Assembly (NCBI GenBank): GCA_028284075.1
Contig: JANQSL010000261.1
Coordinates: 1-60,374 of the forward strand
Source: Candidatus Sumerlaeia bacterium
GTDB lineage: Bacteria; Sumerlaeota; Sumerlaeia; SLMS01; JAHLLQ01
Direction of reading: 5' to 3'
DNA length: 60,374 nt
The notes beneath the pieces are model-generated. The model did not search any database, was not told where the DNA came from, and saw only the letters and a program-made list of their open reading frames with translations. The translations under genes and the position numbers were made by a program. This document shows, piece after piece, positions 41,473 through 59,807 of this stretch; the first letter of the stretch is position 1, and every line of letters begins with the position of its first letter.

Positions 41473-41505
41473 GTGTGAAGCGGGATTGCGGAGGAAGTGG
41501 AAAGC

Positions 41506-41552: not shown

Positions 41553-41636
41553 CCTGAACCATGGAATCGCTTCCCCGAGTCCCTGGCGACGGGCTTTGTC
41601 CGGTCCGGACTAGGCCAAAAGAGGTGATTGTGGGGA

Positions 41637-41650
41637 GGAAAATGTTTTCC
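41637..41650. promoter_or_regulatory. LacI-type operator, perfect palindrome (sulfatase)
   Basis: GGAAAATGTTTTCC is an exact match to the GGAAAANNTTTTCC palindrome that recurs before the mannan-locus genes. It ends 35 bases before the sulfatase start, where bound repressor would block transcription. The LacI-family protein encoded at 44888-45979 is the obvious candidate regulator (inference). Confidence 0.7.
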
Positions 41651-41685
41651 TTGTCCATCGGATGGTATTGAGGAGACTGGAGCTC

Positions 41686-43509
41686 ATGCGTCGCGACTTA
41701 CTGAAATCACTCTCAATATTGCCCGCTGTGTTCTTCTCCGCAGCGGAGCCGACTGGGGCGGAACCGGCACCACGACCCCCGAATTTTCTGCTGATTCAGA
41801 CCGACGACATGGGCGTGGGCGACCTGGGTATTAGTGGCAACCGGTGGGCTCGGACACCCGTAATCGACCAGCTCGCCCGGGAATCCGTGCGTTTCCGTAA
41901 CTTCTACGTGCACTCGGTGTGCGCACCGACACGTGCCTCGTTACTGACGGGGCGGCATTTCCTTCGAACAGGTGTTTCAGGTGTCCATGGCGGGCGTGAC
42001 TTTCTACATCTCGGGGAAACGACGATAGGTGAATTGCTCCGCGACGCCGGGTACGCGACAGCGATGTATGGCAAGTGGCACCTTGGAAAAACGGATGGCT
42101 ACTATCCCTGGGACCGTGGGTTCAGCGATGTGTGGATGGCGGACCTGTACAAGTATCGCAATGCGCGCGGATGGCGAAACGGTGAGTGGTCGGAAACACA
42201 GGAATGGTCTGAAGAACTCGCCACCGATATGGCGATCGAGTTTCTTCGGGAGCATGCCGGCGAGCCGTTCTTTTTATATATGCCTTATATGACTCCGCAC
42301 GAGCCATACGATGCGCCTGATGAGTATGTTGAGCGTCATCGTGCTCGCGGGCTTGAGGATCCGGCGGCGACGCTCTATGCAATGCTGGAGTTTTTTGACG
42401 ATAACGTCGGGCGTCTGCTTGATGAACTGGAGGCGCTTGATATCGAAGATCATACGATCGTCCTGTTCATGAGCGATAACGGACCCTGGCTGAACTGCTC
42501 GCGCACGGGTCGTTTCACGGACGAGCAGTGGGCTCAGCGCAATCCATTGCCATACCGTGGTAACAAAGGGCAAAACTGGGAGAATGGCATTATTTCGCCG
42601 CTGTTTGTCCGATGGAAAGGCACCTGGCAATCAAGTGAGAGGTTTGAGATGACGTCGGTGTTGGATGTCGCACCGACTCTCCTCGGCCTCGCGGGGGTGG
42701 AGCCGCCAGAGGAGCATCCCGGGCTCGACGGACATGATATGACGGAGATTCTGGCTTCACCGGAAGCTCCCTGGCCGAACGACCCCTTCTTTATCGCGCA
42801 ATGGAACCCTGAGATTCCAGGTTACGAGAACCCTTTGGATGAGTGGACACACTATGTCCCTTTGTCACCCGCAGTGAGAGCACAGATCCGTTTTGACAAC
42901 CAACGGATCGGTATCCGCAACGATCGCTACAAGCTGCTTTGGGGACAGTATGGTGGATTGTCGATCGACAATATCGAATTGCGTGACATGTGGACGGATC
43001 CCTGGGAGAACACAAACGTCCATGAGTCGAACGGGAAAATCACCACTGAAATGCTGGAGCGACTGCGAACGTGGTACGACGGCATTCTTAATGAGCCACA
43101 TGCATATACGATGCCTGTGTTTCTGATTGGCCACGACGGCCATGCCGATTCGCCGGTTCCGGCATACGCTCCCGCGGAAATCGAGGGAGGTCTTTGGAAT
43201 TCAGCCCATGCGCTCGCAAACTGGAGGGAAACGGGCGATGCGGCTCACTATGACGTTGATGTTCAAACTGCGGGACGATGGACCCCGACACTTGAATACG
43301 AAAGCCAGCAACCTTCGAAAGCTCGGGTTGAGGTAAGCATTGCCGGCCAGACGTGTCAGGCATCGATTGACGGTGATTCATGGAAGACGCTGGACCCGAT
43401 TGAACTGTCGGAAGGAAACCATCGCCTGACAATTCGACTGATCGAGCCGTCAAAAGTCAGCGGTGTTGCGGCGATCGAGCGGCTGAGTGCGATTCGCTTT
43501 CGCCGCTGA
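41686..43509 (+). CDS. Formylglycine-dependent sulfatase (family S1)
   Basis: A 607-residue arylsulfatase-fold enzyme. The modification motif C79-A-P-T-R83 (CAPTRASLLTGR) marks the cysteine that a formylglycine-generating enzyme must oxidise. The N-terminal metal aspartates are in LLIQTDDMGVGDLG; later come MYGKWHLGK, FFLYMPYMTPHEPYDAP and MSDNGPW. An N-terminal MRRDLLKSLSILPAVFFSAA looks like a signal peptide with a twin arginine. About 120 C-terminal residues form an added beta domain. It should remove sulfate esters from a polysaccharide outside the cytoplasm. The operator just upstream links it to the mannan regulon, suggesting a sulfated substrate. No formylglycine-generating enzyme is in the window. 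Confidence 0.93.
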   Translation: MRRDLLKSLSILPAVFFSAAEPTGAEPAPRPPNFLLIQTDDMGVGDLGISGNRWARTPVIDQLARESVRFRNFYVHSVCAPTRASLLTGRHFLRTGVSGVHGGRDFLHLGETTIGELLRDAGYATAMYGKWHLGKTDGYYPWDRGFSDVWMADLYKYRNARGWRNGEWSETQEWSEELATDMAIEFLREHAGEPFFLYMPYMTPHEPYDAPDEYVERHRARGLEDPAATLYAMLEFFDDNVGRLLDELEALDIEDHTIVLFMSDNGPWLNCSRTGRFTDEQWAQRNPLPYRGNKGQNWENGIISPLFVRWKGTWQSSERFEMTSVLDVAPTLLGLAGVEPPEEHPGLDGHDMTEILASPEAPWPNDPFFIAQWNPEIPGYENPLDEWTHYVPLSPAVRAQIRFDNQRIGIRNDRYKLLWGQYGGLSIDNIELRDMWTDPWENTNVHESNGKITTEMLERLRTWYDGILNEPHAYTMPVFLIGHDGHADSPVPAYAPAEIEGGLWNSAHALANWRETGDAAHYDVDVQTAGRWTPTLEYESQQPSKARVEVSIAGQTCQASIDGDSWKTLDPIELSEGNHRLTIRLIEPSKVSGVAAIERLSAIRFRR

Positions 43510-43522
43510 TGAGTAAGGAAAA

Positions 43523-43553
43523 GTCGCTGTGTGAAACAGCGACCGGGGCTTTT
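43523..43553 (+). terminator. Intrinsic terminator between convergent sulfatase and GH130 genes
   Basis: The stem GTCGCTGT/ACAGCGAC (43523-43530/43536-43543) with a 5-base loop is followed by CGGGGCTTTT. It begins 14 bases after the sulfatase stop and faces the convergent GH130 stop at 43587. Confidence 0.6.
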
Positions 43554-43586
43554 CAGAGACTGGAGACTCTTTCTGAGTTCTTTCGA

Positions 43587-44567
43587 TTACCGGGCGCCAT
43601 TGCCGGAATGCGGCATGTGTGCAACGAGGTCATTCGCCTTGATGAATGAGATGAGTTCCGCCATTGTCGTGGTGGCCATGCACGTACATGTGTCCGCTGC
43701 ACCGTAAATGACTTTCAGCTCATCGGTGTTTTCATCATAGAGTGCGGCGCAGGGAAAGGTGACATTGGGAACATCGCCCACGCACTCGTACTGCTCCGTC
43801 GGAGCAAGTATGTAGCGTCGCGTTCGATGCAGAACCTTCCACGGCTCATCGAGGTCGAGTATCGCCGCACCGACACTGTAGACGAACCCATTGCAGGATG
43901 TTAAGACTCCATGGTAAATCAGCACCCATCCTTCCGGTGTTTCGATCGGTACGGGACCTGCCCCGATTTTTGTGCTCTGCCATCCGTTGGCAACACCCAT
44001 AACAAAGCGGTGTTTTCCCCAGTGGAGAAGGTCATTTGAATGCGAGAGAAAAATATCCCCAAAGGGGGTGTGTCCGTTGTCGCTGGGGCGGTGCAGCATC
44101 ATGAACTGGCCGTTGATACGGCGTGGGAAGAGAACCGCGTTCCGGTTGAAGGGTGGTAGAATAACATCGAGAAATTCAAAGTTTTCAAAATCATCGGTCA
44201 CGCCAAGGCCGATGCCCGGTCCATGGTAGCCATGACACCAGGTGATGTAATAACGGTCCTCCAGAAAGGTTACCCGGGGATCGTAAGCGTAAACGATTCT
44301 GGATATCTCCGGGTCCTTGCACTTCCAGCGAATGGGCTCGTGCTCGATTTCCCAATTCAGGCCGTCAACACTGCGTCCTGAGTGAATGAGCATGTCGCGA
44401 TCCTGATTATCGACACGGAAAACCCCACGGTACTCATTCCCGAAGGGAACGATGGCGCTGTTGAAAATGCTGTTGGCGCATGGAATGGCGTCTCGGGCGA
44501 TGATGGGATTGCCGGGGTGGCGCTTGAGCAGAGGTTCGTTGGCCGTTGCTTTCTCAAGAAGGGTCAC
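43587..44567 (-). CDS. GH130 beta-mannoside phosphorylase
   Basis: A 326-residue five-bladed propeller enzyme of family GH130. Hallmarks are NPIIARDAIP near residue 20, AYDPRVTFLEDRYYITWCHG with the general-acid aspartate D96, NAVLFPRRINGQFMMLHRPS, and GAGPVPIETPEGWVLIYHGV. There is no signal peptide, so it acts in the cytoplasm, splitting beta-1,4-mannosides with phosphate to give mannose-1-phosphate. Subfamily (mannosyl-glucose, manno-oligosaccharide or mannosyl-GlcNAc) cannot be fixed by eye; the GH26 and transporter genes favour manno-oligosaccharides. It is divergent from the LacI gene, with operators between. The start is a GTG at 44567. Confidence 0.92.
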   Translation of the reverse strand: MTLLEKATANEPLLKRHPGNPIIARDAIPCANSIFNSAIVPFGNEYRGVFRVDNQDRDMLIHSGRSVDGLNWEIEHEPIRWKCKDPEISRIVYAYDPRVTFLEDRYYITWCHGYHGPGIGLGVTDDFENFEFLDVILPPFNRNAVLFPRRINGQFMMLHRPSDNGHTPFGDIFLSHSNDLLHWGKHRFVMGVANGWQSTKIGAGPVPIETPEGWVLIYHGVLTSCNGFVYSVGAAILDLDEPWKVLHRTRRYILAPTEQYECVGDVPNVTFPCAALYDENTDELKVIYGAADTCTCMATTTMAELISFIKANDLVAHMPHSGNGAR

Positions 44568-44643
44568 GGTGGTGCTGCCTTTCGGTGATTTCTTCGAGCT
44601 CTGTATTGGCTGACAGAATCCTGAAGCTCATGGTGGAATGATA

Positions 44644-44657
44644 AGAAAAGGTTTTCC
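44644..44657. promoter_or_regulatory. LacI-type operator, one mismatch (GH130)
   Basis: AGAAAAGGTTTTCC matches the GGAAAANNTTTTCC palindrome at 11 of 12 fixed positions. It lies 77 bases upstream of the GH130 start, in the divergent region shared with the LacI gene. Confidence 0.6.
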
Positions 44658-44672
44658 TCTTTGTTGAGAGGA

Positions 44673-44761
44673 TTTGAGAGCGGGTTAGCCCAACGCAACC
44701 CTTTTCTGATGGACTTCTCCGCCGATTGTGAAGTGGCGGGACTCTCTCAAAACCTGATTTT
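44673..44761 (-). promoter_or_regulatory. Stem-closed element sharing a 19-base block with the pseudopilin upstream region
   Basis: TTTGAGAG (44673-44680) and CTCTCAAA (44744-44751) can pair in 8 base pairs. The right arm is part of a block (44743-44761) that is identical at 18 of 19 positions to 30565-30583 upstream of the first pseudopilin. The enclosed stretch has smaller hairpins, CCGCC/GGCGG and GGGTT/AACCC. It lies upstream of the GH130 gene on the same strand. Confidence 0.4.
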
Positions 44762-44826
44762 CGAGCAAACAAGGCTGAGAATAAGGTTTGTGCCTCCTGG
44801 CAGCCTGGACCAAAACCTCCGTTGCG

Positions 44827-44840
44827 AATAAACGTTTTCC
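44827..44840. promoter_or_regulatory. Weak LacI-type operator half-site (LacI gene)
   Basis: AATAAACGTTTTCC has an intact right half (TTTTCC) and a degenerate left half, with a central CG as in many LacI-family operators. It lies 47 bases before the LacI gene start and could allow autoregulation. Confidence 0.4.
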
Positions 44841-44887
44841 GAGGAGCCGGGTGCGAGGGAGGCTCATTGCCGAACGAGAGCTGCTGA

Positions 44888-45979
44888 ATGGGCAAGAAAA
44901 CCCCCAACTCGACCAAAACCGGCAGGCCTGCCGTCACGTTGCAGACCCCCAAACCTGCGGCCCGTCGTCAGACTTACTTCATTCACGATGTGGCGAAGAT
45001 GGCCGGGGTATCAATTTCAACGGTATCCAAGGCCCTTAACGGAACCGGTTCCATCAGCCAGAAGACCCGAAAGCGAATCATTCGTATCTGCGAGGAAATC
45101 GGTTACACGCCTAACCCCGCGGCCAAAATGCTCCGGGCGCAACGGTCCGAAAACATCGGCCTTTTTTTCTATCCGTCATGCATTCATCTCTTCCACAGCC
45201 CCTTTCACGGAACCGTCGTGGCGGGAGCGGAGCAGGTTCTCAGCAAGCGAAACTACAACCTGTTGCTGGCGGGAACAGAGTTTATTGGCGACGATCACCG
45301 TTTGCCGAAGTTCGTGAAGGAGCGCTCGGTCGACGGTGTTCTGATCCTCGGAAAGATGCCCTCTTCGCTGGTCGATGAACTTCGAGAGTATGGGCTGCCC
45401 TTTGTCATCCTGGATTCCGAATCGGCGGACCCCAATGTTGACTCTGTCATCTCCGACAACATCGAGGGCGCCGCAGCGGCAACGCGCTTTCTGATCGAAC
45501 AGGGTCATCGGAAAATTGCCATGTTTGCTGCGAAGGAAGACGATTCCAGCACACTGGCACGCTTCAATGCCTTTCGTTCCACACTGCTCGAGCGGGACTT
45601 GTTCCGGCCGGACTGGGTTCTTCGGCACGCCCATTCAGAAGATGGCGGTATGAGGGCGGCCGAGGAATTGTTGAAAATGGAGCAGCGCCCGACGGCGCTT
45701 TTTTGCGTCAACGACAGTATGGCGATCGGTGCGATGAAGGTCTTCAAGAATGTCGGACTTCAAATTCCACGGGATGTGAGCGTCGTCGGGTTTGATGATC
45801 TCTATGTCAGCCGGTTCTTCAGTCCGGCTCTGACAACGATTCGCGTGGATCAGATGCAAATGGGTGAAATCGGAGCCACCATTTTGCTGGACAGCCTGAC
45901 AGACGAGTCGCATGCGCCCTGTAAGCGAATTGTTCAAACGCAGTTGGTTGTGCGCGATACTGTTAGAAACATCGCCTGA
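44888..45979 (+). CDS. LacI-family transcriptional regulator of the mannan locus
   Basis: A 363-residue regulator. After a 30-residue polar N-terminal extension comes the LacI helix-turn-helix and hinge helix (IHDVAKMAGVSISTVSKALN, then IGYTPNPAAKMLR). The ligand-binding domain is of periplasmic-binding-protein type, with VDGVLILGKMPSS, ALFCVNDSMAIGAMKVFKNV and DVSVVGFDDLYVSRFFSPAL. It sits divergent from GH130 and convergent with a GH5-like gene. It should bind the GGAAAANNTTTTCC sites found before at least five transcription units here, and release them on binding a mannan-derived sugar; both are inference from position. Start ATG at 44888 has a GAGAG ribosome site. Confidence 0.92.
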   Translation: MGKKTPNSTKTGRPAVTLQTPKPAARRQTYFIHDVAKMAGVSISTVSKALNGTGSISQKTRKRIIRICEEIGYTPNPAAKMLRAQRSENIGLFFYPSCIHLFHSPFHGTVVAGAEQVLSKRNYNLLLAGTEFIGDDHRLPKFVKERSVDGVLILGKMPSSLVDELREYGLPFVILDSESADPNVDSVISDNIEGAAAATRFLIEQGHRKIAMFAAKEDDSSTLARFNAFRSTLLERDLFRPDWVLRHAHSEDGGMRAAEELLKMEQRPTALFCVNDSMAIGAMKVFKNVGLQIPRDVSVVGFDDLYVSRFFSPALTTIRVDQMQMGEIGATILLDSLTDESHAPCKRIVQTQLVVRDTVRNIA

Positions 45980-45988
45980 CGCCTGTCG

Positions 45989-48229
45989 TTACTGAATCAG
46001 AAACGCATCGAGTGTTACTGCAACTTTCGGCGGCATGACTTTGATGGCCATGTCTTTCTCAAAGGTCGGGAGCGCGAATGTCAGCGTCCCTCCGGAAGAC
46101 GTTGCCGTTGCGGTTGAAGTGATGCCTCCAGGTGGACGTGTGTCGTGGAACTCCAGCGCATAGTCGCCATCGTCAAGTCCCTCGACCGCCGCTGTCACTC
46201 CACTGATGAGACCGTTGTCGAGCCGTCCGTACTGGCTGCCGAGATCATAAATCCAGAGATAGGCGCTGAGAGGCCCGGACAGACCGATGACACCCACGGA
46301 GTTCGTCGTGACATTGGTGAATTCGTATTCGTCGATACGAACCCAGTCCTGGCCTGTATTTTCAACCTGCACGACGTGGTTGCCCGCGGCTACCGGAGTG
46401 GTAATCGTGAAGTTGGTCTGGCCGTTCGTCAAATTCTGATTCAGCACAGGTGAACCATCGACCAGAATGCGGATCGAGTTGTTTCCCGCGCCGGACACCT
46501 CTGTCACGTGGACTGTCATGGAGCCGCCGGCCTCGAACCCGACGTTGAACTCCGGGTCGGAGCGGAGTGCGGACTGAAACGTTCCGTGCAAATAGACGTT
46601 CAGGTCTGATACTCCCGGAAATGATCCATCACTTTGCATTGTGAATGCCGTCTGTGCTGACACTCCAAAGAAATCCGTGACGCCGGGGAAGGCGGACGCG
46701 TTTGTGACGCTTCCCGCTCCACTGAAAGCGACAGTTGCAGTGCCCAGGTTTTCCGAGGCGAAATCAATTCCATCCGCATAGAGGGCGAGTGCCGCGAAGT
46801 GATCGTCAAGTGACTCGCTTTCGATGTACTCCCACCACCAGTACATCGCCGACGACCCAAGGTGAAGTGACGACCAGAGACCATTGTGAAGGACCAGGCC
46901 ATCCTGCAGCTGCTGACTGCGAGGCGCTCCTTGTGCACCAATATTAAACTCCGGCGTTCCGGATCCGGTACCTGCCGCTCCATACTCACCGAACACCACT
47001 GGTTTGTCAAAAGCGGCAAGGTCTCCGGCGTGATCGACGAACTGCGCGATCTTGTTGTCATCGTAGTCGTGGACCTGCATTAAATCGATGTTGTCCAGAG
47101 ACCAGATGTTCTCGAACCCGATTTCCTCCGAGCTTGTTGTAATGAGATGATCGAAAGGGTCGTTGTTCTGGAGCCATTCCGCCATCTCGTCATGCCACGC
47201 CGCGACGTTTGCGCGTTGAACTGCCGACGTTCGATAATTGTCCGTAAACTGGACCTCATTGAACAATTCCCAGGCAAAAATACTGGTGGAGTACCCCCAG
47301 CGTGCAACGATGTAACGGAGTTTGCGCTTGAACAGGTCGCGGGCCGCCGGGTCCGTGAAGAACTGATCGGGTGAGGACAAGAAGCCTCCATCAGCCACGT
47401 TTGCGATATTGTAGGGGTTCTCGGACCAGTTGGGGTTGACCGTAGTGCTGAACTGACCGTGGTGCTGAAGGGCGAGTTGAATGGCGATACCGTTTTGTTC
47501 CGCCAGTTCAACGATACGATCGATGCGATGTGCCTGTTGAAGACTGAAACGGCCGACTCCCTCGAAGTGGCCTGTAAAGTGGTCGCTCGACCATTCAATG
47601 ATTTGTCCGCGGAAGAAGTGTGTCATCCAGATGCGAACGAAGTTCTGGCCGTTGGCGTTCATTGTGGTAAAGGTGCTGTCGTACAAATTTGACCCGGAAT
47701 TGTCCGCCCAGCTCACGTTTCGACCGATGGGAATATAGGGTTCGCCGGACGATCTCCTGAGAAATCGCGAATCGACGGGATCGGCACGAATAAAGCCTGG
47801 TTTGGCTCCTGCAACGCAGCCGAATGTTGCTGCATTGCTGACCGTCGTGGTACCCATGATGTCTGTAACGCTGAGATCGATGGAATGGGTGCCCGTCTGC
47901 CACGGAGCAAAACGTGCCTTCCAGGCGGGATTGCGGCCATTCTGGATGAATTCGACGCCGGTTCCGACGAGATCGTATTCCATGTGGTGGAATGCGGGAA
48001 TCTCGACCTGGCTTGTATCGGGAAGAGTAATGACTGCCCGTGCATCGACCTCATCGGGATCGAACGGGTTTGTGTAGGACTGATCGAGATCGAACGTAAC
48101 CTCAAGCTTGTCGTATTGAGCAACCGATGGGGCGTTCAGTGTCACACCGGAGATCGTCGTTGCAAAGCTCGTTGAGGCAAAGAAAAGGCACACCGGCAAA
48201 TGGGTCCACCTTCCTCTTCTCCGTTTCAT
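45989..48229 (-). CDS. DUF5060/GH5-like secreted glycosidase with C-terminal CBM-like domain
   Basis: A 746-residue exported protein (signal ending near FASTSFA). Residues about 25-145 are a DUF5060 Ig-like domain. Residues about 145-480 form a clan GH-A barrel with acid/base E325 (FAWELFNEVQF) and nucleophile E415 (KPVVFGEYGAA). Residues about 545-640 are a beta-sandwich resembling sugar-binding modules (GGSMTVHVTEVSGAGNNSIR). The barrel is a clear paralogue of the 926-residue protein at 49858-52638 (shared NPYN and FAWExFNE). It is likely an endo-acting beta-mannanase given the locus, but GH5 subfamily and substrate are inferred. Its stop lies 9 bases from the convergent LacI stop. A hairpin precedes its ribosome site. 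Confidence 0.87.
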   Translation of the reverse strand: MKRRRGRWTHLPVCLFFASTSFATTISGVTLNAPSVAQYDKLEVTFDLDQSYTNPFDPDEVDARAVITLPDTSQVEIPAFHHMEYDLVGTGVEFIQNGRNPAWKARFAPWQTGTHSIDLSVTDIMGTTTVSNAATFGCVAGAKPGFIRADPVDSRFLRRSSGEPYIPIGRNVSWADNSGSNLYDSTFTTMNANGQNFVRIWMTHFFRGQIIEWSSDHFTGHFEGVGRFSLQQAHRIDRIVELAEQNGIAIQLALQHHGQFSTTVNPNWSENPYNIANVADGGFLSSPDQFFTDPAARDLFKRKLRYIVARWGYSTSIFAWELFNEVQFTDNYRTSAVQRANVAAWHDEMAEWLQNNDPFDHLITTSSEEIGFENIWSLDNIDLMQVHDYDDNKIAQFVDHAGDLAAFDKPVVFGEYGAAGTGSGTPEFNIGAQGAPRSQQLQDGLVLHNGLWSSLHLGSSAMYWWWEYIESESLDDHFAALALYADGIDFASENLGTATVAFSGAGSVTNASAFPGVTDFFGVSAQTAFTMQSDGSFPGVSDLNVYLHGTFQSALRSDPEFNVGFEAGGSMTVHVTEVSGAGNNSIRILVDGSPVLNQNLTNGQTNFTITTPVAAGNHVVQVENTGQDWVRIDEYEFTNVTTNSVGVIGLSGPLSAYLWIYDLGSQYGRLDNGLISGVTAAVEGLDDGDYALEFHDTRPPGGITSTATATSSGGTLTFALPTFEKDMAIKVMPPKVAVTLDAFLIQ

Positions 48230-48243
48230 GGGCCGTGTTCCTG

Positions 48244-48278
48244 AAGCACCCTCTCCGGATTTCCGGCTCCGGGTGCTT
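48244..48278 (-). promoter_or_regulatory. Leader hairpin just upstream of the DUF5060/GH5-like gene
   Basis: The arms AAGCACCC (minus strand, 48278-48271) and GGGTGCTT (48251-48244) pair, with an inner CCGGA/TCCGG stem. The hairpin ends 14 bases before the ATG at 48229, leaving the AGGA ribosome site free. It follows the terminator-like hairpin at 48330-48371. Confidence 0.45.
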
Positions 48279-48329
48279 TGGTTGAAAAAAGATTCGATCC
48301 CGTTTTCGTCAATTCCACTGCTTCAAAAC

Positions 48330-48371
48330 AAGGCCGGGCGGACTGTGGAAGAAAGAGTCCGGCCCGGCCTT
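48330..48371 (-). terminator. Intrinsic terminator after the tandem binding-module gene
   Basis: On the minus strand, AAGGCCGGGCCGGACT pairs with AGTCCGCCCGGCCTT across an 11-base loop, and GTTTTG follows. It starts 21 bases after the stop of the 392-residue binding protein and lies 100 bases before the GH5-like gene on the same strand, so it can limit read-through between them. Confidence 0.65.
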
Positions 48372-48391
48372 TGGAAGGAGAGGTGAATTGG

Positions 48392-49570
48392 TTACCTGTA
48401 CAGCGCCCAGTCCATGACGCTGGCCGGTGTATTGTAAACGCGAACCGTATCGACCTGAATGGTCGCTGTCTGACCCACGGCGGGCTCACCGAACTCCACT
48501 CCGAAGCGCTCCACAACATCGAGGTCTGTCAGAGCGGTCATGTCGAAGGTGTAAGTCGCAAAGCTTCCGTCATCGGGAAGGTTCACTGAGCCAAAGGTTT
48601 GGAAATTAAAACCGCTCGTTGTTTGAGCATAGGCCTGCATGAAAACCGTGGTACTGTCACTCGAGTCGGCTGAAACAACAATATCCATGGTTGTGTAGTT
48701 GCTCAGATCGAGGGGCCTGGAACGAAACTCCGTACTCCCGCTGACGGGCTCGACAAAGTGGATCCCGGGGCCGCCATCGCCTGAGGGAGAGTTTTCTTCG
48801 AGAACAAACTGGATGGCTCCATCCACACCCGCTGCCGGCACATGCGTGAATCCAACCCCCGTTGAGCCGGGATCAGCCAGGAAACCGTTCACAATCGCGT
48901 TCTCACGGAAGTTGATTCGTACACCATCGAGTCCGCTGTTGAGACCGGCATCGTTGAATTCGCCGAGAAAACGCTCAGTGGCACCGGCGCCAACGGAACG
49001 CACTTCCGTCACTGTAATCGTCCACGTTTCACCATTGGGAGGGCTGACCTGAAAACCGTACTGCGGGAGAGTGGCAATGTAACCGTTGAGGTCCGGAACA
49101 GCGAGGCCGCTGAAAGGAGCAAAGACTGTCTGAGGAGTTCCGTCCGTTGGAACGTTTTGGGCTCCCTGACTCAGGAAGAGAAAACCCTGTCCGTTGCCTT
49201 TGACGTAGAAGTCGACGCTTGCGGTACCGGGTGTTCCGTCCGTGGTGATGGACATGTCATATTCGAGACCGTCCAGACCGAACAAGTCAGTCACACCGCC
49301 GCCATCACCGGGAAACGCTCCTCCGTTGTTAAATCCGTCCGCGAGGCCGGCGAATTCCGCACCATCCCCTGTTACTTCAAACTCAATACCTCCGCTTCCG
49401 TTGAAGGTGGGTCCGGTTGCGTTTACGGTGCCATTCGTGAAATCGACAAGCCAGTCCTCTGCATCTGAGTCGAACGTGTTCAGAGTGTTGGCTGTTTGGG
49501 CCGTGGCAAAACTCGTCATGGCGGCGAGAACACCGGCGGCAATCACATGGGTAAAATGGGTCTGCTTCAT
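48392..49570 (-). CDS. Secreted protein with two carbohydrate-binding-like beta-sandwich domains
   Basis: A 392-residue exported protein; the signal peptide ends AAMTSFATAQ. Two jelly-roll-like halves are visible. One (about 30-190) begins NTLNTFDSDAEDWLVDFTNG and the other (about 195-385) begins ATERFLGEFNDAGLNSGLDG. Both have the acidic, glycine-rich strands of galactose-binding-like or CBM modules and end in a VDTVRVYNTP-type strand. No catalytic domain is present. A perfect operator lies 52 bases upstream, so it belongs to the mannan regulon. It likely binds the polysaccharide at the surface or in the medium; the ligand is inferred from context only. Confidence 0.8.
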   Translation of the reverse strand: MKQTHFTHVIAAGVLAAMTSFATAQTANTLNTFDSDAEDWLVDFTNGTVNATGPTFNGSGGIEFEVTGDGAEFAGLADGFNNGGAFPGDGGGVTDLFGLDGLEYDMSITTDGTPGTASVDFYVKGNGQGFLFLSQGAQNVPTDGTPQTVFAPFSGLAVPDLNGYIATLPQYGFQVSPPNGETWTITVTEVRSVGAGATERFLGEFNDAGLNSGLDGVRINFRENAIVNGFLADPGSTGVGFTHVPAAGVDGAIQFVLEENSPSGDGGPGIHFVEPVSGSTEFRSRPLDLSNYTTMDIVVSADSSDSTTVFMQAYAQTTSGFNFQTFGSVNLPDDGSFATYTFDMTALTDLDVVERFGVEFGEPAVGQTATIQVDTVRVYNTPASVMDWALYR

Positions 49571-49621
49571 ACTTCCGAATCCTTTCCAGGGAGTGTTCCC
49601 TTGGGGAACCGATCAGAGTTA

Positions 49622-49635
49622 GGAAAACATTTTCC
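49622..49635. promoter_or_regulatory. LacI-type operator, perfect palindrome (tandem binding-module gene)
   Basis: GGAAAACATTTTCC is an exact match to the palindrome and the reverse complement of the site at 41637-41650. It lies 52 bases upstream of the 392-residue binding protein gene on the minus strand. Confidence 0.7.
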
Positions 49636-49857
49636 TTACGAATGCAAACTCCTTCCTCACGGTTGGAGCGTTGTCAACGGAAAACCATTCCCTGATTTCT
49701 TTCACTGAATCCAGCCTCTCAACGTGTGAATAACTGGCTGAATTGAACTTAATCGCCCTCCTTGTGAGAATTGCCGGAGCCCGAGCCTCTCTTTTTCTCG
49801 AAGAAACAAGTGATTCCTGAACCGGTGGATGTGGAAAAACATATTCCCAAACACTCC

Positions 49858-52638
49858 TCACTGCTCCCGCTTTGTGGCAAAAAATTTGGCGGCAATGTCG
49901 GTCCTGAAACCGGGAATCGAGATCTGATCATTCCCTTCATCATGCACCGTTTTCCCGGAGATCGTTCCGCCAGCTGTGTTCCACCACTCAACCCGGGAAG
50001 GCGTAAAGTCGAGTCGATCCGGGGAGAGTGTTGCTCCGGTTACAGTTGAAAAATCGGGTAACTCGGAGTGCTTTCCTGAAAATGCCGTCGCAGTGGCGTC
50101 CTTGCGGCGAATCCACAGAAGCGTGCGATCACTGAGATCAAGTGCCATCGCCTCAAGTCTCGCTTCCGGGTGTTCCACCGCGAATTTGCGACCGGGTCCT
50201 TTCGACAGGTGCAGTGGTTCATCTTCAGCAAACGATGAAATCCCCCTGTAGACGTGCCACAGATCGCGTGGTGCGACATAACTGTCCCACCACCATGTCA
50301 TGGCACCCCCCGCGGCCCCGCTCATGAGTGAAGCCCAGTTACCCGTGTGCAGATGACGTCCGGCGGGATCGATTCTCGGGGGGTTGTGTTCAATACCCAG
50401 CTCTCCCACGAACACCGGCTTTCTGTACTCGTTGCGCAAGCGGTGAATCTTCGCAAAAATCGCGGGTGGCCAGTTCCCAACCTCATACATGTGGGGCTGA
50501 GTGAAATCGATGGAATCCGGACCGTACACTCTTTCGCTTCCCTTTGCGCTGGTCGTGATCAGATGATGGTTTGGATCCCATTCGCGAATGACATCGGTCA
50601 TTTCCGCAACCCAGGGGAGAAGGGCTTCCGTATCGAGTCCCGATGTGTTCTCGATCTCATTGAACCACTCCCAGGCGAACACATTCGGGCTGTATGAATA
50701 GCGCGCCATCAGGTAGCGAAGCCGGCGGCGAAACATTGTGCGAGCCGTTTCGTCCGTCAGAAACTCGACGGGGTGATCGATCGGTCCGCCAATGGCGGCA
50801 TTGTAAGGGTTGGCATTCCATTCTGAATTGGTGCTGAGACTCAGCTGGCCATGATTCAGCAGACAGAACTGGACACGAATACCAAGCTCTTCGCAACGCC
50901 TCATGATATAATCGAGACGCCAAAGATGAGGCTGGCGTTCGTCATACTGACCGAGTCCGGTTTCAATCCATTCCGGATTAAAACTGACTGAAAACATCCA
51001 GATGCGTATGAAATTGCCTCCATTGGCTGCGAGCGATTCAAGCCAGCGGTCGTAGGCAACGGTCTGAAGATTTCCTTCACCGGTGGTGTCGACATACCAG
51101 CACATGTTCAGGCCGACAGGAAAGAAGACATCCGAGGTGTCTGTGGCAAAGTAGTACGGATTGTCATTATTGATTCGGATGAACCCGTCTCGTTTTGAAG
51201 GAATCGCAAGGAAACTCAGCACTTCGGTTTCAGTCGCTCCGGTACGATCTGTTGCGCGAATTGTGAACTCCCATCGGCCCGGTTGCGTTGGTGTGAATCG
51301 GATATGCCACTCCGGGAGATCCGCCGCCCGAAGCTGCTCCTGCCCTTTGACAACTGTCCTTTCAAACGGCCACATGAAAAAGGCGGGAACCTTGTGGGCC
51401 TTGCCCTCTGGCGAAGTGAACTCGGCAACCACATCAATGTCGGCCGGATCATAGGGATTGTCATGAGTCGCGTTAAGATCAAACATCGCCTCGAAGAGAC
51501 CGAAGACAGGCACTCGATCGCGATTCGTTCGTACGTTGTTGAACTCCGGCGGACCCTCGCCTGACTGAACATGTGCACTGCGTGGTCTGAAATTGGTCAC
51601 AGGTTCAACGAAGGCACTGACGCCTCCCTGGCGCGAAATCCCCGGTTCAGCGTCAGGTCTGTGGCGAAGTTGCAGCTCGTGGAACGAGTACCCATATTGT
51701 GTGCCACGCCGATGCAGCTCGATTCGCACCCGGTCGGCGGTGACGGAGCTGAAGGTGACCGTTTCGACTCCGCCTCGACCATCGGTAACAACAGCGACTT
51801 CCTCCCAGTCCTCATTGTTGTTGGCGATGAGAACGCTGTACTGACGACCGTACGCGGACTCCCAGTCGAACACGATCTGGTTGAATTCCAACGGCTCCGG
51901 CAGCCGCACCTCATACCACTGTTCATCGGCATACACAGACGCCCACCGGGAGTCGGCGATTCCGTCGATACCCTTTCCCGGCCCCTTGTCCGCACCCTCC
52001 TGACTTGATGCGGAAGCGATGGATCCTCTCGCGAGATTGCCGATGCCTGAGAGAGCCGCTCTTCCTTTCCTCTCGAACTCTCTCCCGGCTTCCGCCACAT
52101 CCTTTACGAGTCGCAGATTGTCGAAAACAACCGTCGAGTCCGGCTCGTGACCCGTGAGCATAAAGGACATTTGATTAAAGCTCTCCAGAGTCTCCCGCGA
52201 ATAGAGAGAGAGAGGCAGTCGGACGTCGCGATTCATGCCCTCCGGTACCACAACGAACTTCCCCATCCGATAGTGAAAGTTTCGGTCGTGGAAGTCGAGG
52301 CGCAAAAATAAAGTCTGGTCGGTGTGGATATCGACGAGAAGATGGGTTCCGCAGGAAAGATTGCCGGAAGCATCAGGATACTTCAGGAAGATCTGAGCCT
52401 TTCCAACTCCGCGATTCTCATCGAAGACGAGACGTGTGGCGCTCTCTCCCTCCGTGACATGAACTCGGGATTTGACAGTTCCCGAAACGTCAGACACCCA
52501 GGGCGAATCGGCTCCATTGAAAACCCATTTTGCGGGATCGTCAAATGTGTCAACCATGCCCGTCTTGCATTCCTCCGCAGGAGCGCATCCATTGCAGAAT
52601 CCGAGCAGCACGCAAAGTGAGAGAAAGGTTCTCAGCAT
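49858..52638 (-). CDS. Multidomain DUF5060/GH5-like glycosidase lipoprotein
   Basis: A 926-residue lipoprotein (CNGC lipobox, C18). Domains in order: an N-terminal CBM-like beta-sandwich (about 28-180), an F5/8 type C/CBM32-like module (about 200-330, WASVYADEQWYEVRLPEP), a DUF5060 Ig-like domain (about 375-480), and a clan GH-A barrel (about 485-830) with acid/base E661 (FAWEWFNEIEN) and nucleophile E746 (KPVFVGELGIE). It is a paralogue of the 746-residue enzyme but anchored to a membrane and with different binding modules. It likely cuts mannan at the cell surface. It follows the pseudopilin gene on the same strand after an intrinsic terminator, so expression is probably partial read-through or from its own weak promoter. 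Confidence 0.88.
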   Translation of the reverse strand: MLRTFLSLCVLLGFCNGCAPAEECKTGMVDTFDDPAKWVFNGADSPWVSDVSGTVKSRVHVTEGESATRLVFDENRGVGKAQIFLKYPDASGNLSCGTHLLVDIHTDQTLFLRLDFHDRNFHYRMGKFVVVPEGMNRDVRLPLSLYSRETLESFNQMSFMLTGHEPDSTVVFDNLRLVKDVAEAGREFERKGRAALSGIGNLARGSIASASSQEGADKGPGKGIDGIADSRWASVYADEQWYEVRLPEPLEFNQIVFDWESAYGRQYSVLIANNNEDWEEVAVVTDGRGGVETVTFSSVTADRVRIELHRRGTQYGYSFHELQLRHRPDAEPGISRQGGVSAFVEPVTNFRPRSAHVQSGEGPPEFNNVRTNRDRVPVFGLFEAMFDLNATHDNPYDPADIDVVAEFTSPEGKAHKVPAFFMWPFERTVVKGQEQLRAADLPEWHIRFTPTQPGRWEFTIRATDRTGATETEVLSFLAIPSKRDGFIRINNDNPYYFATDTSDVFFPVGLNMCWYVDTTGEGNLQTVAYDRWLESLAANGGNFIRIWMFSVSFNPEWIETGLGQYDERQPHLWRLDYIMRRCEELGIRVQFCLLNHGQLSLSTNSEWNANPYNAAIGGPIDHPVEFLTDETARTMFRRRLRYLMARYSYSPNVFAWEWFNEIENTSGLDTEALLPWVAEMTDVIREWDPNHHLITTSAKGSERVYGPDSIDFTQPHMYEVGNWPPAIFAKIHRLRNEYRKPVFVGELGIEHNPPRIDPAGRHLHTGNWASLMSGAAGGAMTWWWDSYVAPRDLWHVYRGISSFAEDEPLHLSKGPGRKFAVEHPEARLEAMALDLSDRTLLWIRRKDATATAFSGKHSELPDFSTVTGATLSPDRLDFTPSRVEWWNTAGGTISGKTVHDEGNDQISIPGFRTDIAAKFFATKREQ

Positions 52639-52665
52639 ATCGACGATCTTCCGGTCATAAAAGTA

Positions 52666-52700
52666 ACGGGCCCGATAGCGTTGTCTGCCAGCGGGCCCGT
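52666..52700 (-). terminator. Intrinsic terminator after the pseudopilin gene
   Basis: On the minus strand, ACGGGCCCG (52700-52692) pairs with CGGGCCCGT (52674-52666) across a 17-base loop, and TACTTTTAT follows. It lies between the pseudopilin stop (52738) and the start of the multidomain glycosidase (52638), the same arrangement as at 48330-48371. Confidence 0.65.
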
Positions 52701-52737
52701 CCTCGAAAAGCGATGAACATTGGCGGAGACGTGGGGC

Positions 52738-53487
52738 TCAGCGCGTGATCGCGGTGCCCCCCGCATAGAAATTGCCGATATCTCCCTGACTGACGGTTCC
52801 GTTCGTGGGATCGTAAATGCCTCCACCGTCGGTGGCTTGCTGAAGAAAACCGTTCACGCCGTCCGGGCCGAGTGACCAGAGCATGTAACCGACCTTTGAA
52901 CCACGAGGATTGTTATTGCCGGGGGTCCAGTTGGCTGATCCACCTTCCGTATTTTCGAGCCCGAGAACATCGGGCGCTTCAGAGACATTGTAAGCCGCCT
53001 TAAACCGATCAGAGACGAAATTCCCTCCCATGTGGGAAGCCTCATAAAAGTGATGCTGCTGTTCCCTGTAGACGATTCCGGAAAAGCCATCCCGCGTTCC
53101 CGCCTTGGCGAATGGATCGTTGATGAGACCATTCGTCATGTAGGAAATGGGAGTGCTGAGGTTCCATGGAAGACCGAAAAAATTGAAGCCATTCTGCCGA
53201 TACGAGAACCGGCCGGCGGTGCTTCCACTCAGAGAAGCCTCTGGTGAGCTCGGGCAGAACGCAACGGCGGGATTCGGGTGAAGGCAAATGTTCCACGGAA
53301 CGGCATTGTTGTCGACGGTGTATGTCGCGATTCCGATGTTGATGGAGCGCTGATCGGCAAGGGCTCGCGAAACCTTGCTTCGAATCTGGGCTTCGAGGAA
53401 ATTCGGAACGGCAATTGCAGCGAGAATGGCAATAATCGCCACGACGATCAGGAGCTCGATCAGAGTAAATGCTTTTCTGGAGAACAT
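52738..53487 (-). CDS. Pseudopilin inside the mannan regulon
   Basis: A 249-residue prepilin with a textbook class III signal (MFSRKAFTLIELLIVVAIIA) and NFLEAQIRSKVSR after the helix. The globular part ends YDPTNGTVSQGDIGN, matching the first pseudopilin of the window (29786-30469), so both belong to one family. The start at 53487 has a GAGAGG ribosome site. A near-perfect operator sits 113 bases upstream and divergent to the transporter operon. This suggests a substrate-specific pseudopilin made with the glycosidases, perhaps to secrete or display them. No other secretion gene is in the window. Confidence 0.92.
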   Translation of the reverse strand: MFSRKAFTLIELLIVVAIIAILAAIAVPNFLEAQIRSKVSRALADQRSINIGIATYTVDNNAVPWNICLHPNPAVAFCPSSPEASLSGSTAGRFSYRQNGFNFFGLPWNLSTPISYMTNGLINDPFAKAGTRDGFSGIVYREQQHHFYEASHMGGNFVSDRFKAAYNVSEAPDVLGLENTEGGSANWTPGNNNPRGSKVGYMLWSLGPDGVNGFLQQATDGGGIYDPTNGTVSQGDIGNFYAGGTAITR

Positions 53488-53599
53488 CGAAGAACCTCTC
53501 TTTGCGGTTGGGCTGGAGTTCAAAGTCGATTTCAGAAGACCGGGACCACGCTGTTGGAAACGTGTAGAGGGTGGCCTTGGATTGGCGGGCTCCGTGGAA

Positions 53600-53613
53600 G
53601 GAAAATGTTTTCT
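53600..53613. promoter_or_regulatory. LacI-type operator, one mismatch (pseudopilin)
   Basis: GGAAAATGTTTTCT matches the palindrome at 11 of 12 fixed positions. It lies in the 373-base divergent region between the pseudopilin and the transporter operon, 113 bases upstream of the pseudopilin start. The rest of this region (53488-53860) holds no gene. Confidence 0.6.
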
Positions 53614-53776
53614 TGATGTGGAGCGTTTATGAACGACCCTCTCATGGCAAGACTTTTTTTGCCAGAAAACCTTCCTTCCTGTCAAGTGTATGTAAATCAA
53701 CAATATATGCATGATTCAACGGGCGCCTTACGGGAGAAAGCTCCGGGGAAGCCGGTCTGACTGGCATGGAAAATTA

Positions 53777-53790
53777 GGAAAAGATTTTCC
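53777..53790. promoter_or_regulatory. LacI-type operator, perfect palindrome (sugar transporter operon)
   Basis: GGAAAAGATTTTCC is an exact match, 71 bases before the sugar-binding lipoprotein start. Together with the site at 53600-53613 it brackets the divergent promoters, spaced 177 bases apart. Confidence 0.7.
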
Positions 53791-53860: not shown

Positions 53861-55156
53861 ATGTACCCGTTTCCCCGGCCATTCCTCTTCTCTCTTGGTA
53901 TTCTGGCCGTCATGGCCGCGGTGCTGATCGGGTGCTCGGAAAGGAAACCCGACGAGGGCATCACCATACTGCGTATGGCAACATGGGCATCCGACAGCGG
54001 CTTTGAACTTGAACGTGCAATCATTACCAGCTTTGAACAGGCAAATCCGGATATTCGCATCGAGCTGATCTACACGCCCTATGACTACTACACTGAAAAA
54101 CTGCTTACACTGAGCGTCAGCGGCGATCCGCCGGACGTCTTCTGGACGATCACCGAGACGCTCCCGTATCTTGCCAGCCGTGGTGTGGCGATGGATCTCA
54201 CGGACAAAGTGGCGAACGATCCCGAAATCGATACGGCTCTTTACTTTCCGAACGCCCTGAGTCTCTGCAGCTACGGGGATCGGCTCTACGCAATGCCTCG
54301 CGACGTGGCATGCTTCTTTACCGTTTACAACAAGAACATTTTCGATGAAGCGGGTGTTCCCTATCCCGAACCAGGATGGACATGGGATGATTTTCTGGAG
54401 ACCGGCAAACGATTGACTTTGGATGAAAACGGAGATGGGCGCAACGAACGCTTTGCAATGACTCCGTACCTTATGGACGTGATCTATCAGAACGGTGGTC
54501 AGATTTTGGGCGAAGACGGCACCGTCGCCTGGTTGAACTCACCTGAGACCGTAGGAGCTCTCGACTGGTGGTCCGATACAATTCTCGAACACGGCATTTG
54601 TCCAAGAGCGCAGGAGCAACAGGGCTTCGGGGGAGACCTCTTTGTGACGGAACGCGCGGCCATGACCTTTCAGGGGCCGTGGATGATCGGGTGGTATGAT
54701 GAACAATGCGATTTTGACTGGGATATCGTGGGTTTTCCGGGCGGAAAGGCAGGTCCCAAGGCAAGACTCCTCGGTCTGCCAATTGCGATTTCACCGAAAA
54801 CAGAACATCCTGAAGAGGCGTATCGCCTTCTGAAATTTCTCACGTATTCGCAAGAGGCACAGACACTTCAGGCGGAGCTTGGCATTGCAATGCCGGCACG
54901 ACGTGACATCGCCGACTCGGAAGCGTTCCGTGGGCAGGATGTCATGCCGCCTGGAATCGTCCACTTCATTGACGCCATGCAGAACGACACCGTTGTCGAA
55001 AACGTCTTTCCATTCTATTCACCCGTAAAGAAAGCCTACCAGTCAATGATGGACACCGTGAACCTTGGTGAAATGTCACCACAGGAAGCGGGCGATCACT
55101 ATCAAACACAGGTCGAGCGGGAAATCGCGAAGGCCCGGCGGCGGGGACTGCTTTGA
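53861..55156 (+). CDS. Sugar ABC transporter substrate-binding lipoprotein (mannan locus)
   Basis: A 431-residue family 1 solute-binding protein with a lipobox (LIGC, C25). The mature start has ILRMATWASDSGFELERAII; the interior has GWTWDDFLETGKRLTLDENG, AAMTFQGPWMIGWYDEQ and the usual DPPDVFW-like segment (SGDPPDVFWTITETLPYLA). It should bind manno-oligosaccharides or related sugars in the periplasm, judged from the operator upstream and the neighbouring GH26 and GH130 genes. The ATG at 53861 is chosen by signal peptide; no strong ribosome site is seen. Its stop overlaps the permease start. Confidence 0.92.
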   Translation: MYPFPRPFLFSLGILAVMAAVLIGCSERKPDEGITILRMATWASDSGFELERAIITSFEQANPDIRIELIYTPYDYYTEKLLTLSVSGDPPDVFWTITETLPYLASRGVAMDLTDKVANDPEIDTALYFPNALSLCSYGDRLYAMPRDVACFFTVYNKNIFDEAGVPYPEPGWTWDDFLETGKRLTLDENGDGRNERFAMTPYLMDVIYQNGGQILGEDGTVAWLNSPETVGALDWWSDTILEHGICPRAQEQQGFGGDLFVTERAAMTFQGPWMIGWYDEQCDFDWDIVGFPGGKAGPKARLLGLPIAISPKTEHPEEAYRLLKFLTYSQEAQTLQAELGIAMPARRDIADSEAFRGQDVMPPGIVHFIDAMQNDTVVENVFPFYSPVKKAYQSMMDTVNLGEMSPQEAGDHYQTQVEREIAKARRRGLL

Positions 55157-56061
55157 GCGGGGCGGGCCGGAGTTCCGCACGGCGCCGCGAGGCGCTGGCA
55201 TGCTATGGCTTCATCATGCCTGCGATTTTGTTTCTTGCTTTGATGGCGGTCGGGCCGATCATCGCATCCTTTGTGATCAGCTTTACATACTGGGATGTCA
55301 TGACTCCGCCGCAGTGGATCGGTCTCGAGAACTATCGAGAAATGTTCTTCCACGATCCGTTGTTTTGGAAGAGCCTGTGGAACACCCTCTACTTCACGGC
55401 ATTCATTGTTCCGTTGGGCACCATTGTTCCGTTTCTTGTGGCGATGTTGTTGAATTCGAGGATTCGCGGTATGCCGATCTATCGTACCTGCTTCTATCTT
55501 CCCTCAATCGTCCCTGTTGTGGCGGGTTCTGTTCTGTGGCTCTGGATCCTGAACCCGGATTTCGGGCTTTTTAACGCAGTCCTCGGCGTGTTTGGAATTG
55601 AAGGGCCCCTCTGGATGTACAGTCCGAAGTGGTCAAAGCCCGCAATCATTCTGATGACGCTGTGGGGGATGGCGGGAGGCCCCAACATGTTGATCTATCT
55701 GGCTGGTCTGCAGGGAGTCCCCAGGAGTCTTTACGAAGCGGCCGACATGGACGGCGCCCGCTGGTTCACCAGGGTGTGGAACATCACGATCCCCATGATG
55801 TCGCCGTACTTTCTCTTCACACTGGTGATGGGTTTCATTCAGGCGTTTCAGGTTTTCACTCAGGCCTACGTCATGACCACCCGTGGCGACGGCGGCCCGA
55901 TCGATTCGACACTTTTCTATGTTCTCTATCTTTACCACAAAGCCTTCCGTCAGTTTGAAATGGGATATGCGAGTGCCATGGCCTGGGTTCTGTTTGTTGT
56001 CATCCTGATCATCACCGGGATCCAGTTCAAACTCCTCGGCAAGAGGGTGCATTACGGATGA
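55153..56061 (+). CDS. Sugar ABC permease, MalF/UgpA type
   Basis: A 302-residue inner-membrane permease with about six helices (CYGFIMPAILFLALMAVGPI first). The EAA loop is LYEAADMDGARWFTRVWNIT followed by IPMMSPYF, where the importer ATPase docks. It starts with a TTG at 55153 that overlaps the binding-protein stop; no ATG lies upstream of the first helix. The next permease follows with an ATGA overlap, so translation is coupled. Unlike the transporter at 24155-26065, the two permeases are separate chains. No ATPase gene is present. Confidence 0.92.
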   Translation: MSGAGRSSARRREALACYGFIMPAILFLALMAVGPIIASFVISFTYWDVMTPPQWIGLENYREMFFHDPLFWKSLWNTLYFTAFIVPLGTIVPFLVAMLLNSRIRGMPIYRTCFYLPSIVPVVAGSVLWLWILNPDFGLFNAVLGVFGIEGPLWMYSPKWSKPAIILMTLWGMAGGPNMLIYLAGLQGVPRSLYEAADMDGARWFTRVWNITIPMMSPYFLFTLVMGFIQAFQVFTQAYVMTTRGDGGPIDSTLFYVLYLYHKAFRQFEMGYASAMAWVLFVVILIITGIQFKLLGKRVHYG

Positions 56062-56939
56062 GAACGAAACCCGCTCCCGAGCTTGTCCGTGATCCCGTTG
56101 CACCGGCGGAAATCGTGCGGCGAATCCTCATTCACCTCGTGCTTTTGTCGGGGGCCGTTGTCTTTCTGTTTCCCCTGATCTGGATGCTCTCGACCTCGCT
56201 CAAGCCGCCGGACGAGATCTTTTCGATCCCGCCAAAGCTGATTCCCTCCACCTTTGTTTGGGAGAACTACACGAAGCGGGTCTTCGAGATCGTGCCCTAC
56301 GGACGCCACTACCTGAACAGTATCATCATTGTATCGATTTCAGTCTTTGCCAATGTTCTGACCGCGGCAATGTGTGCATACGGCTTTGCACGGCTCCGAG
56401 CTCCCGGGCGCGACTGGATCTTCGGAGTGTTCCTTGCCACAATGATGCTTCCGCCGCAGGTCATGATGATCCCCCTGTTCATCGGGTTTCAGAAAATCGG
56501 CTGGATCAACACCTGGAAACCGCTGATCGTGCCCGCGTTCCTGAGTGGAGGTGCATTCAATGTCTTTCTGCTGCGCCAGTTCTTCATGACGATTCCCCGC
56601 GATCTTGAGGAGGCGGGCCTGATCGACGGCTGTGGCCGCATTACCATCTTTGCACGCATCATCGTTCCGCTTTCGCGTCCGGCGCTTGTTACGATCGCGA
56701 TTTTCTCCTTTATGTATCATTGGAACGATTTTCTGACACCTCTGATCTATCTCCATGACCAGGACAAGTACACCCTCTCTTTGAGCCTGAACCTTTTCAA
56801 AGGCATGTACATCAGCAGAACTCCGTGGGGGCCGCTCATGGCGGCATCGGTCATGATGGTGGCACCCGTCATTGCGCTCTTCTTTGCGGTACAGCGCCAC
56901 TTCGTCGAGGGGATCACACTGACAGGGTTGAAAGGATGA
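56058..56939 (+). CDS. Sugar ABC permease, MalG/UgpE type
   Basis: A 293-residue permease with about six helices, [20 protein letters not shown] in the first periplasmic turn, and the EAA loop [20 protein letters not shown] followed by VPLSRP. The C-terminus ([12 protein letters not shown]) is typical of MalG-type subunits. It pairs with the preceding MalF-type permease. Both ends overlap neighbours by four bases (ATGA), so binding protein, permeases and metallophosphoesterase form one operon. Confidence 0.93.
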
Positions 56940-58751: not shown

Positions 58752-59807
58752 ATGTCAAAGGAACCCGTCGATTCGAAAGCCACGCCCGAAACTTGCAATC
58801 TGTTTGCAAGCCTTTGTGCACTTGCCGGCAAACGCATCCTCTTTGGTCATCAGGATGCGCTCCTTTATGGTGTCGGTTGGAAGGATGAAAACAACAGATC
58901 AGACGTCAAGAGCGTCTGTGGTAAACATCCTGCAGTGGTGGGTTTCGATTTTGGATCAAGCACACGGCGCGGGCTCGAGGCCGGCGCCAGATTGAATTCC
59001 CTGCGTCACCACGCACAGCATGCACATGGCCTCGGTGCATTGGTCACATTCTCGTGGCACGCTTACAATCCCGTAACGGGAGGAGATTTCTACGACCTGA
59101 AGCCTGCCGTCCCTTCCATTTTGCCCGGCGCAAGCCATCATGTTCGTTACCGCGAGGAACTGAATGTCATCGCCGATTTTATGCACTCTCTGAAGGACAG
59201 TGAAGGCAACTTGATTCCCGTTGTTTTTCGCCCGTTTCACGAACACAACGGCGACTGGTTCTGGTGGTGCGAACCCTTCTGTACCATCAACGAATTCATC
59301 GAACTTTGGCGGTTCACTCTGGAGTGTTTGCGGGACGAGCTTGGTGTCCACAACCTTCTGTACTGCTACTCACCGGATGTCTTCAACAGTGCGGCGGAAT
59401 ATCTGGAGAGATACCCCGGTGACGAGTATGTTGATATCCTCGGGCACGACAACTATCGCCAGATCGAAAGTCCCTCGCAAAGGCAACGGTTCATTGAAAG
59501 CCTGCGGACGCTGGTTCGCCTCGCCGACGAGCGTGGCAAGATTGCTGCATTGACGGAAACGGGCCTGGAAGGCATTGCCGATTCGGAGTGGTGGACGGAA
59601 TCTCTCTGGAATCCCATCATTTCCGATGCGGTCGCGTCACGACTCTCATGGTTTCTTGTCTGGCGTAACGCCAATACAAAACATCACTATGCCCCCTGGC
59701 CCGGTCACGCGAGTACCGGCTCATTCCTTCGCATGGCCGGCGACAAGCGTTGCGGCCTCTGTGACGAGCAGCTTGATTTGTATTCCGGTTCCGAGGACTT
59801 CGCCTGA
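58752..59807 (+). CDS. GH26 beta-mannanase, cytoplasmic form
   Basis: A 351-residue GH26 enzyme. RILFGHQDALLYGVGW near residue 30, VTFSWHAYNPVTGG near 100, the acid/base E164 in FRPFHEHNGDWFWW, and the nucleophile E269 in ALTETGLEG make the family call clear. It has no signal peptide, unlike most GH26 endomannanases, so it probably trims imported manno-oligosaccharides (mannobiose-releasing activity is known in the family). It starts 13 bases after the metallophosphoesterase stop, without a visible ribosome site, and closes the transporter operon. Its stop faces the GH1 gene. Confidence 0.93.
   Translation: MSKEPVDSKATPETCNLFASLCALAGKRILFGHQDALLYGVGWKDENNRSDVKSVCGKHPAVVGFDFGSSTRRGLEAGARLNSLRHHAQHAHGLGALVTFSWHAYNPVTGGDFYDLKPAVPSILPGASHHVRYREELNVIADFMHSLKDSEGNLIPVVFRPFHEHNGDWFWWCEPFCTINEFIELWRFTLECLRDELGVHNLLYCYSPDVFNSAAEYLERYPGDEYVDILGHDNYRQIESPSQRQRFIESLRTLVRLADERGKIAALTETGLEGIADSEWWTESLWNPIISDAVASRLSWFLVWRNANTKHHYAPWPGHASTGSFLRMAGDKRCGLCDEQLDLYSGSEDFA

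Follow-up and report, generated by a model that had tools for sequence, protein, structure and literature searches.

The palindrome repeated across the mannan locus of this Sumerlaeota genome is very likely the operator of the LacI-family protein encoded within the locus (44888-45979), which would bind near the starts of seven transcription units and most probably repress them until a manno-oligosaccharide binds. The sites are rare genome-wide, are conserved in a related genome, and co-occur with the lacI gene. We infer the binding, repression rather than activation, and the inducer from the LacI family. A LacI dimer would bind AGGAAAANNTTTTCCT sites near the starts of the seven units, most probably repressing them. 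A manno-oligosaccharide imported by the co-regulated ABC transporter would then bind the periplasmic-binding-protein-like domain of LacI and bring about its release, and LacI would regulate its own gene through the site at 44827.

The window, the whole stretch of 60,374 nucleotides that was analyzed, belongs to a genome of 4.9 Mb in 275 contigs (~90% complete). This genome (G000) was scanned in full by pattern matching with the 14-mer GGAAAANNTTTTCC, using the reversed pattern as a control. The window holds four copies without mismatch (28070, 41637, 49622, and 53777); the sequence-only reading had placed the last three exactly and overlooked the first. The two one-mismatch copies that it listed, AGAAAAGGTTTTCC at 44644 and GGAAAATGTTTTCT at 53600, lie exactly at those positions, and its weak copy at 44827 exists as AATAAACGTTTTCC, with three mismatches to GGAAAANNTTTTCC. 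We also found a conserved two-mismatch copy at 49679 and a perfect copy just past the right end of the window, both overlooked earlier.

The genome as a whole yields five perfect copies, and the control pattern is absent from it. The scan, which had been proposed as a check, puts four of the five in the mannan locus, each ahead of a separate transcription unit if the join to contig C133 described below is assumed. The remaining copy, at 28070, is inside an unrelated GNAT-like (acetyltransferase) open reading frame (ORF) (27450-28397, minus strand) and was treated as chance; it exemplifies a background of perfect copies that is above zero. The claim that chance predicts far less than one perfect copy held up: dinucleotide shuffling of the window, repeated 100 times, never gave a perfect copy, versus four observed. 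In the phylum, 38 other genomes contain 37 perfect copies in ~148 Mb (0.25 per Mb), a rate at which four copies in 20.6 kb have a Poisson P of ~3e-11, or ~7e-9 once every genome position is allowed for. Elsewhere in G000 there are 15 further one-mismatch copies, compared with 11 for the control pattern. This is close to background, which suggests that the regulon is local and indicates no distant members. The most suggestive of these, at C161:44696, has another lacI-family gene ~500 bp away; it falls within an upstream ORF and was set aside. When both halves of the eleven sites with no more than one mismatch are tallied, 20 of the 22 half-sites have T at position 8, and thus the operator is at least a 16-mer. 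The 14-mer sites named earlier are real, but the operator is better written as AGGAAAANNTTTTCCT.

The window and contig C133 share an exact 52-base overlap, the window ending (60323-60374) with the sequence that opens C133, and the GH1 reading frame runs on from one to the other. It is thus very probable that the two contigs are neighbors and that the break between them cuts through GH1, an arrangement that would place the fifth perfect copy (C133:1910, 59 bp before a GH5-GH1 pair) in the mannan locus at ~62,232 in window numbering. The GH5 gene beside this copy, for which bacterial endoglucanases are the closest relatives, was not detected in the same-genus genome G001.

Features of the mannan locus, in window coordinates unless a contig is given (operator strands left blank)
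Feature	Position	Strand	Description
Operator 1, GGAAAATGTTTTCC	41637..41650		Perfect; before sulfatase gene; G001 counterpart GGAAAAGGTTTTCC
Sulfatase	41662..43509	+	PF00884 E=1.5e-58
GH130 beta-1,4-mannooligosaccharide phosphorylase	43587..44567	-	PF04041 E=5.5e-67
Operator 2, AGAAAAGGTTTTCC	44644..44657		One mismatch; 77 bp before GH130; G001 14/14 identical
Operator 3, AATAAACGTTTTCC	44827..44840		CG-centered; 48 bp before lacI; same in G001
LacI-family regulator	44888..45979	+	PF00356 E=7.5e-18, PF13377 E=3.2e-37
DUF5060 protein	45989..48229	-	PF16586 E=7.4e-7; downstream member of 49622 unit
Binding module (mannanase galactose-binding-like domain)	48392..49570	-	PF21253 E=3.9e-6, just above cut-off
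Operator 4, GGAAAACATTTTCC	49622..49635		Perfect; 52 bp before binding-module gene; same in G001
Candidate operator 4b, GGAAAACCATTCCC	49679..49692		Two mismatches; 57 bp from operator 4; same in G001
F5/8 + DUF5060 + GH5-like enzyme	49858..52638	-	PF00150 E=5.6e-7, PF16586, PF00754
Pseudopilin-like protein (MFSRKAFTLIELLIVVAIIAILAAIAVPNF..)	52738..53487	-	PF07963, TIGR02532
Operator 5, GGAAAATGTTTTCT	53600..53613		One mismatch; 113 bp before pseudopilin start; same in G001
Operator 6, GGAAAAGATTTTCC	53777..53790		Perfect; 71 bp before solute-binding lipoprotein ATG 53861; same in G001
Sugar ABC transporter (solute-binding protein, two permeases)	53861..56939	+	PF01547 E=2.3e-33, PF00528 twice
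GH26 (beta-mannanase family)	58752..59807	+	PF02156 E=2.4e-43
GH1, C-terminal part	59817..60374	-	PF00232; remainder on contig C133
Operator 7	C133:1910-1923		Perfect; before GH5 (start C133:1851), then GH1

Transcription-unit boundaries were inferred from strand and spacing, and start codons were read from the sequence. Each of the seven units has a site 11 to 126 bp before its start codon: sulfatase; GH130; lacI; binding module and DUF5060 protein; pseudopilin and GH5-like enzyme; solute-binding protein, ABC permeases, and GH26; and GH5 and GH1. The copies thus do precede the sulfatase, GH130, lacI, binding-module, pseudopilin, and transporter genes, as had been claimed. The sulfatase starts at 41662 or, with a signal-like N terminus, at 41686. 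For the pseudopilin, the mechanical ORF start at 53712 is too early, with PF07963 at residues 76 to 101 of the long ORF. By profile and PDB comparison, the gene content (GH130, GH26, GH5, and ABC transporter) matches that of a mannan utilization regulon. The nearest PDB relatives of GH130 are UhgbMP (E=2.5e-129), TM1225, and the mannooligosaccharide phosphorylase 5ayd, while the 49858..52638 enzyme matches the DUF5060 protein 9gmj (E=2.4e-78) and also GH5 endo-beta-mannanases. The comparisons for GH130, GH26, and the GH5-like enzyme support beta-mannan as the probable target.

Just before the sulfatase, a 1,233-aa ORF (37771-41472) encodes extracytoplasmic function (ECF) sigma-70 regions 2 and 4 (residues 55 to 203) fused to three carboxypeptidase-regulatory-like domains, that is, a sigma factor joined to a large, possibly extracytoplasmic part. 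No operator copy at up to two mismatches is found from 30120 to 41637. Between GH130 and lacI, the sequence CAACGCAACCCNTTTCTG (44691-44709), outside the palindrome, is kept in G001. The transporter unit includes a 637-aa ORF (56825-58738) that has no Pfam match and weak metallophosphoesterase-like similarity.

G001, the one same-genus genome compared (Ca. Sumerlaeota, 4 Mb), has a syntenic locus on two contigs with 65 to 78% DNA identity. Its 4 Mb contain three perfect copies, all within this locus, and both one-mismatch copies are kept as well. Alignments of the intergenic regions are 41 to 53% identical, while the sites within them are identical at 13 or 14 of 14 positions. They differ at a single base, in the free center of operator 1 (GGAAAAGGTTTTCC in G001 versus GGAAAATGTTTTCC); the copies at 44644, 53600, and 44827 are the same base for base, as are the 49679 site and its flanking GTTGTCAACG. 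Another two-mismatch copy, at 49834, is not kept in G001 and was set aside.

Two of the conserved regions extend beyond the operators. Candidate operator 4b sits within a block, GTTGTCAACGGAAAACCATTCCC (49670-49692), that is identical in G001 and contains TTGTCAACGG along with the two-mismatch copy. A resembling element, CTGTCAACGG, is found upstream of the lacI ortholog in the more distant genome G011. Read on the other strand, TTGTCAACGG offers TTGACA, a potential −35 box, for which inspection by eye showed no matching −10. At operator 5, unlike at the other sites, conservation continues well past the operator over ~80 bp (53585-53670), and the pseudopilin unit may have its promoter or a leader element in this block.

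The 44888-45979 product has a LacI helix-turn-helix at its N terminus (PF00356, 64.5 bits versus a cut-off of 27) and a C-terminal periplasmic-binding-protein-like sensor domain (PF13377), and PurR structures align over residues 32 to 359. Its recognition helix reads SISTVSK, and its hinge, NPAAKMLRAQRS, was aligned by eye with that of PurR. Among 39 genomes of the class, a close ortholog occurs in G000, G001 (81% identity), and G011 (46%) only, and all three retain the hinge alanine and leucine. A search of named genomes gave no close ortholog apart from that of the sister Sumerlaeota metagenome-assembled genome. SISTVSK is likewise restricted to these three among the 30 LacI homologs read, and at two of the other loci, one match with two mismatches was seen in the 420 bp examined.

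The sites follow the distribution of this lacI gene. In G011, the ortholog and a GH2 beta-mannosidase-like ORF (recognized by eye) are divergently oriented, and the DNA upstream of the ortholog contains the related sites AAAAAACGTTTTCC and AGAAAAGGATTTCC. G000 and G001 each have a single copy of AAACGTTTTCC, and G011 has three; in every one of these genomes, one copy is upstream of the lacI ortholog. The remaining G011 copies (C274 and C497) are near unrelated genes and were set aside, as were perfect copies of the palindrome in that genome within an efflux-pump ORF (C177) and inside or beside unrelated ORFs (C88). Both GH130 genes accompanied by this lacI have a site, whereas nine GH130 homologs from genomes without it, two of them 77% and 75% identical, have none (≤2 mismatches) within 500 bp upstream. 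Conservation in G001, the related sites in G011, and absence at the lacI-less homologs together tie the motif to this LacI, although the orthologs carrying it are few, one close (G001) and one distant (G011). The earlier proposal of a single LacI regulon is thus supported by rarity, conservation, and co-occurrence with lacI, but its extent was drawn too small, as it continues to the GH5-GH1 pair. In G003, a gene that appears by eye to encode a GntR-like helix-turn-helix with a LacI-like sensor (L090 2454-3641) directly precedes the GH130 homolog with 77% identity, a hint that mannan loci may exchange their regulators.

As a 16-bp even palindrome 11 to 126 bp upstream of start codons, AGGAAAANNTTTTCCT has the form of a LacI-family operator. 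Operators of the family are even palindromes of 16 to 22 bp. A survey places over 75% of sites 30 to 140 bp upstream and counts 72% of regulators as autoregulated (PMC4052901), and the site positions and predicted autoregulation fit these norms. The same survey found a central CG in 1,173 of 1,251 even palindromes (PMC4052901), making it a usual but not strict requirement. The operators reported here have TG/CA, GG/CC, or GA at the center, and CG occurs at 44827 only. Non-CG centers despite a kept hinge leucine, which normally inserts there, are the main counterargument to the LacI assignment. The copy at 44827 that had been called weak is probably a genuine CG-centered autoregulatory operator of lacI. 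Escherichia coli MalI offers a partial parallel. Its helix, SVSTVSL, is near-identical to SISTVSK, and its operator GATAAAACGTTTTATC before malX, with a close copy before malI, shares the AAAA/TTTT core of the sites reported here. However, MalI operators are CG centered with A/T outside the core, whereas these sites have a free center and outer GG/CC, and the regulons differ. The comparison is an analogy only, since published LacI recognition rules concern the TVSR subgroup (PMC2978694).

The atypical centers raise the question of whether the GGAAAANNTTTTCC sites belong to a different transcription factor encoded elsewhere, leaving this LacI with the CG-centered 44827 site only. The family-typical CG at 44827 and at its G011 counterpart, missing from the main sites, would fit such a division. 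However, the TTTTCC half is common to both site types, AGAAAAGGATTTCC stands beside the CG site in G011, and the motif is missing at GH130 homologs without this lacI. The other genomes of the phylum contain no comparable cluster, and nine of the ten perfect copies inspected there (G016, G020, G024, G029, G034, G035, and G037) lie inside ORFs and were set aside. We therefore consider a separate factor improbable. That the repeats are chance or structural sequence (A/T-tract or terminator-like) with no regulator at all is far less credible still: the perfect copy inside coding sequence at 28070 and the ~0.25 copies per Mb in relatives show that chance copies arise, but neither accounts for the clustering (P ~7e-9) or for sites kept base for base in diverged intergenic DNA, and a two-base loop is incompatible with a normal terminator hairpin.

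A different rival accepts binding by LacI but has the protein activate its units, or both activate and repress them. The variable distance from site to start, 11 to 126 bp, would be consistent with this. The sulfatase site, 11 to 48 bp from the start codon, is in a repressor-like position, and LacI-family proteins that have a sugar effector mostly act as repressors. Activation is thus unlikely, if somewhat less so than a separate factor, and LacI-mediated repression remains the preferred reading. More tentatively, we propose that two operator classes may coexist within one regulon under a canonical hinge leucine, with CG dropped at the structural-gene operators and kept at the regulator's own promoter, and that the sulfatase and pseudopilin could be tied to beta-mannan use, which would point to a sulfated mannan and to a pilus-like surface or secretion component.

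The evidence supports a real, well-conserved local regulon in which an ordinary type of switch is paired with an atypical operator center and two unexpected members, the sulfatase and the pseudopilin, which predicted co-regulation adds to the mannan locus. In the literature searched, no experimentally studied regulator was reported from Sumerlaeota, for which the locus provides a conserved, putative regulator-operator pair. The sites also predict how far the mannan locus reaches beyond the contig end. Within the LacI family, the pair would be an example of a protein whose hinge is canonical but whose operators mostly lack the central CG.

Known regulators of mannan use offer several comparisons. 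GmuR of Bacillus subtilis belongs to the GntR family, not the LacI family. It is a phosphotransferase-linked repressor of a mannan utilization operon (PMC10766802); both loci combine transport and enzymes, and the phosphotransferase link belongs to GmuR. The ManR regulators comprise five non-orthologous LacI-family groups for mannose and mannosides (PMC4052901) and are likewise local LacI-family regulons, a likeness at the level of description. GlyR2 of Clostridium thermocellum is a LacI-family, mannobiose-responsive repressor of man5A (PMC10766802). Both would place mannanase genes under LacI-family control answering to a manno-oligosaccharide, the response being a prediction in the present case. 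However, only man5A has been experimentally confirmed for GlyR2, whereas the regulon described here is predicted to cover seven units, including a sulfatase and a pseudopilin, in a different phylum.
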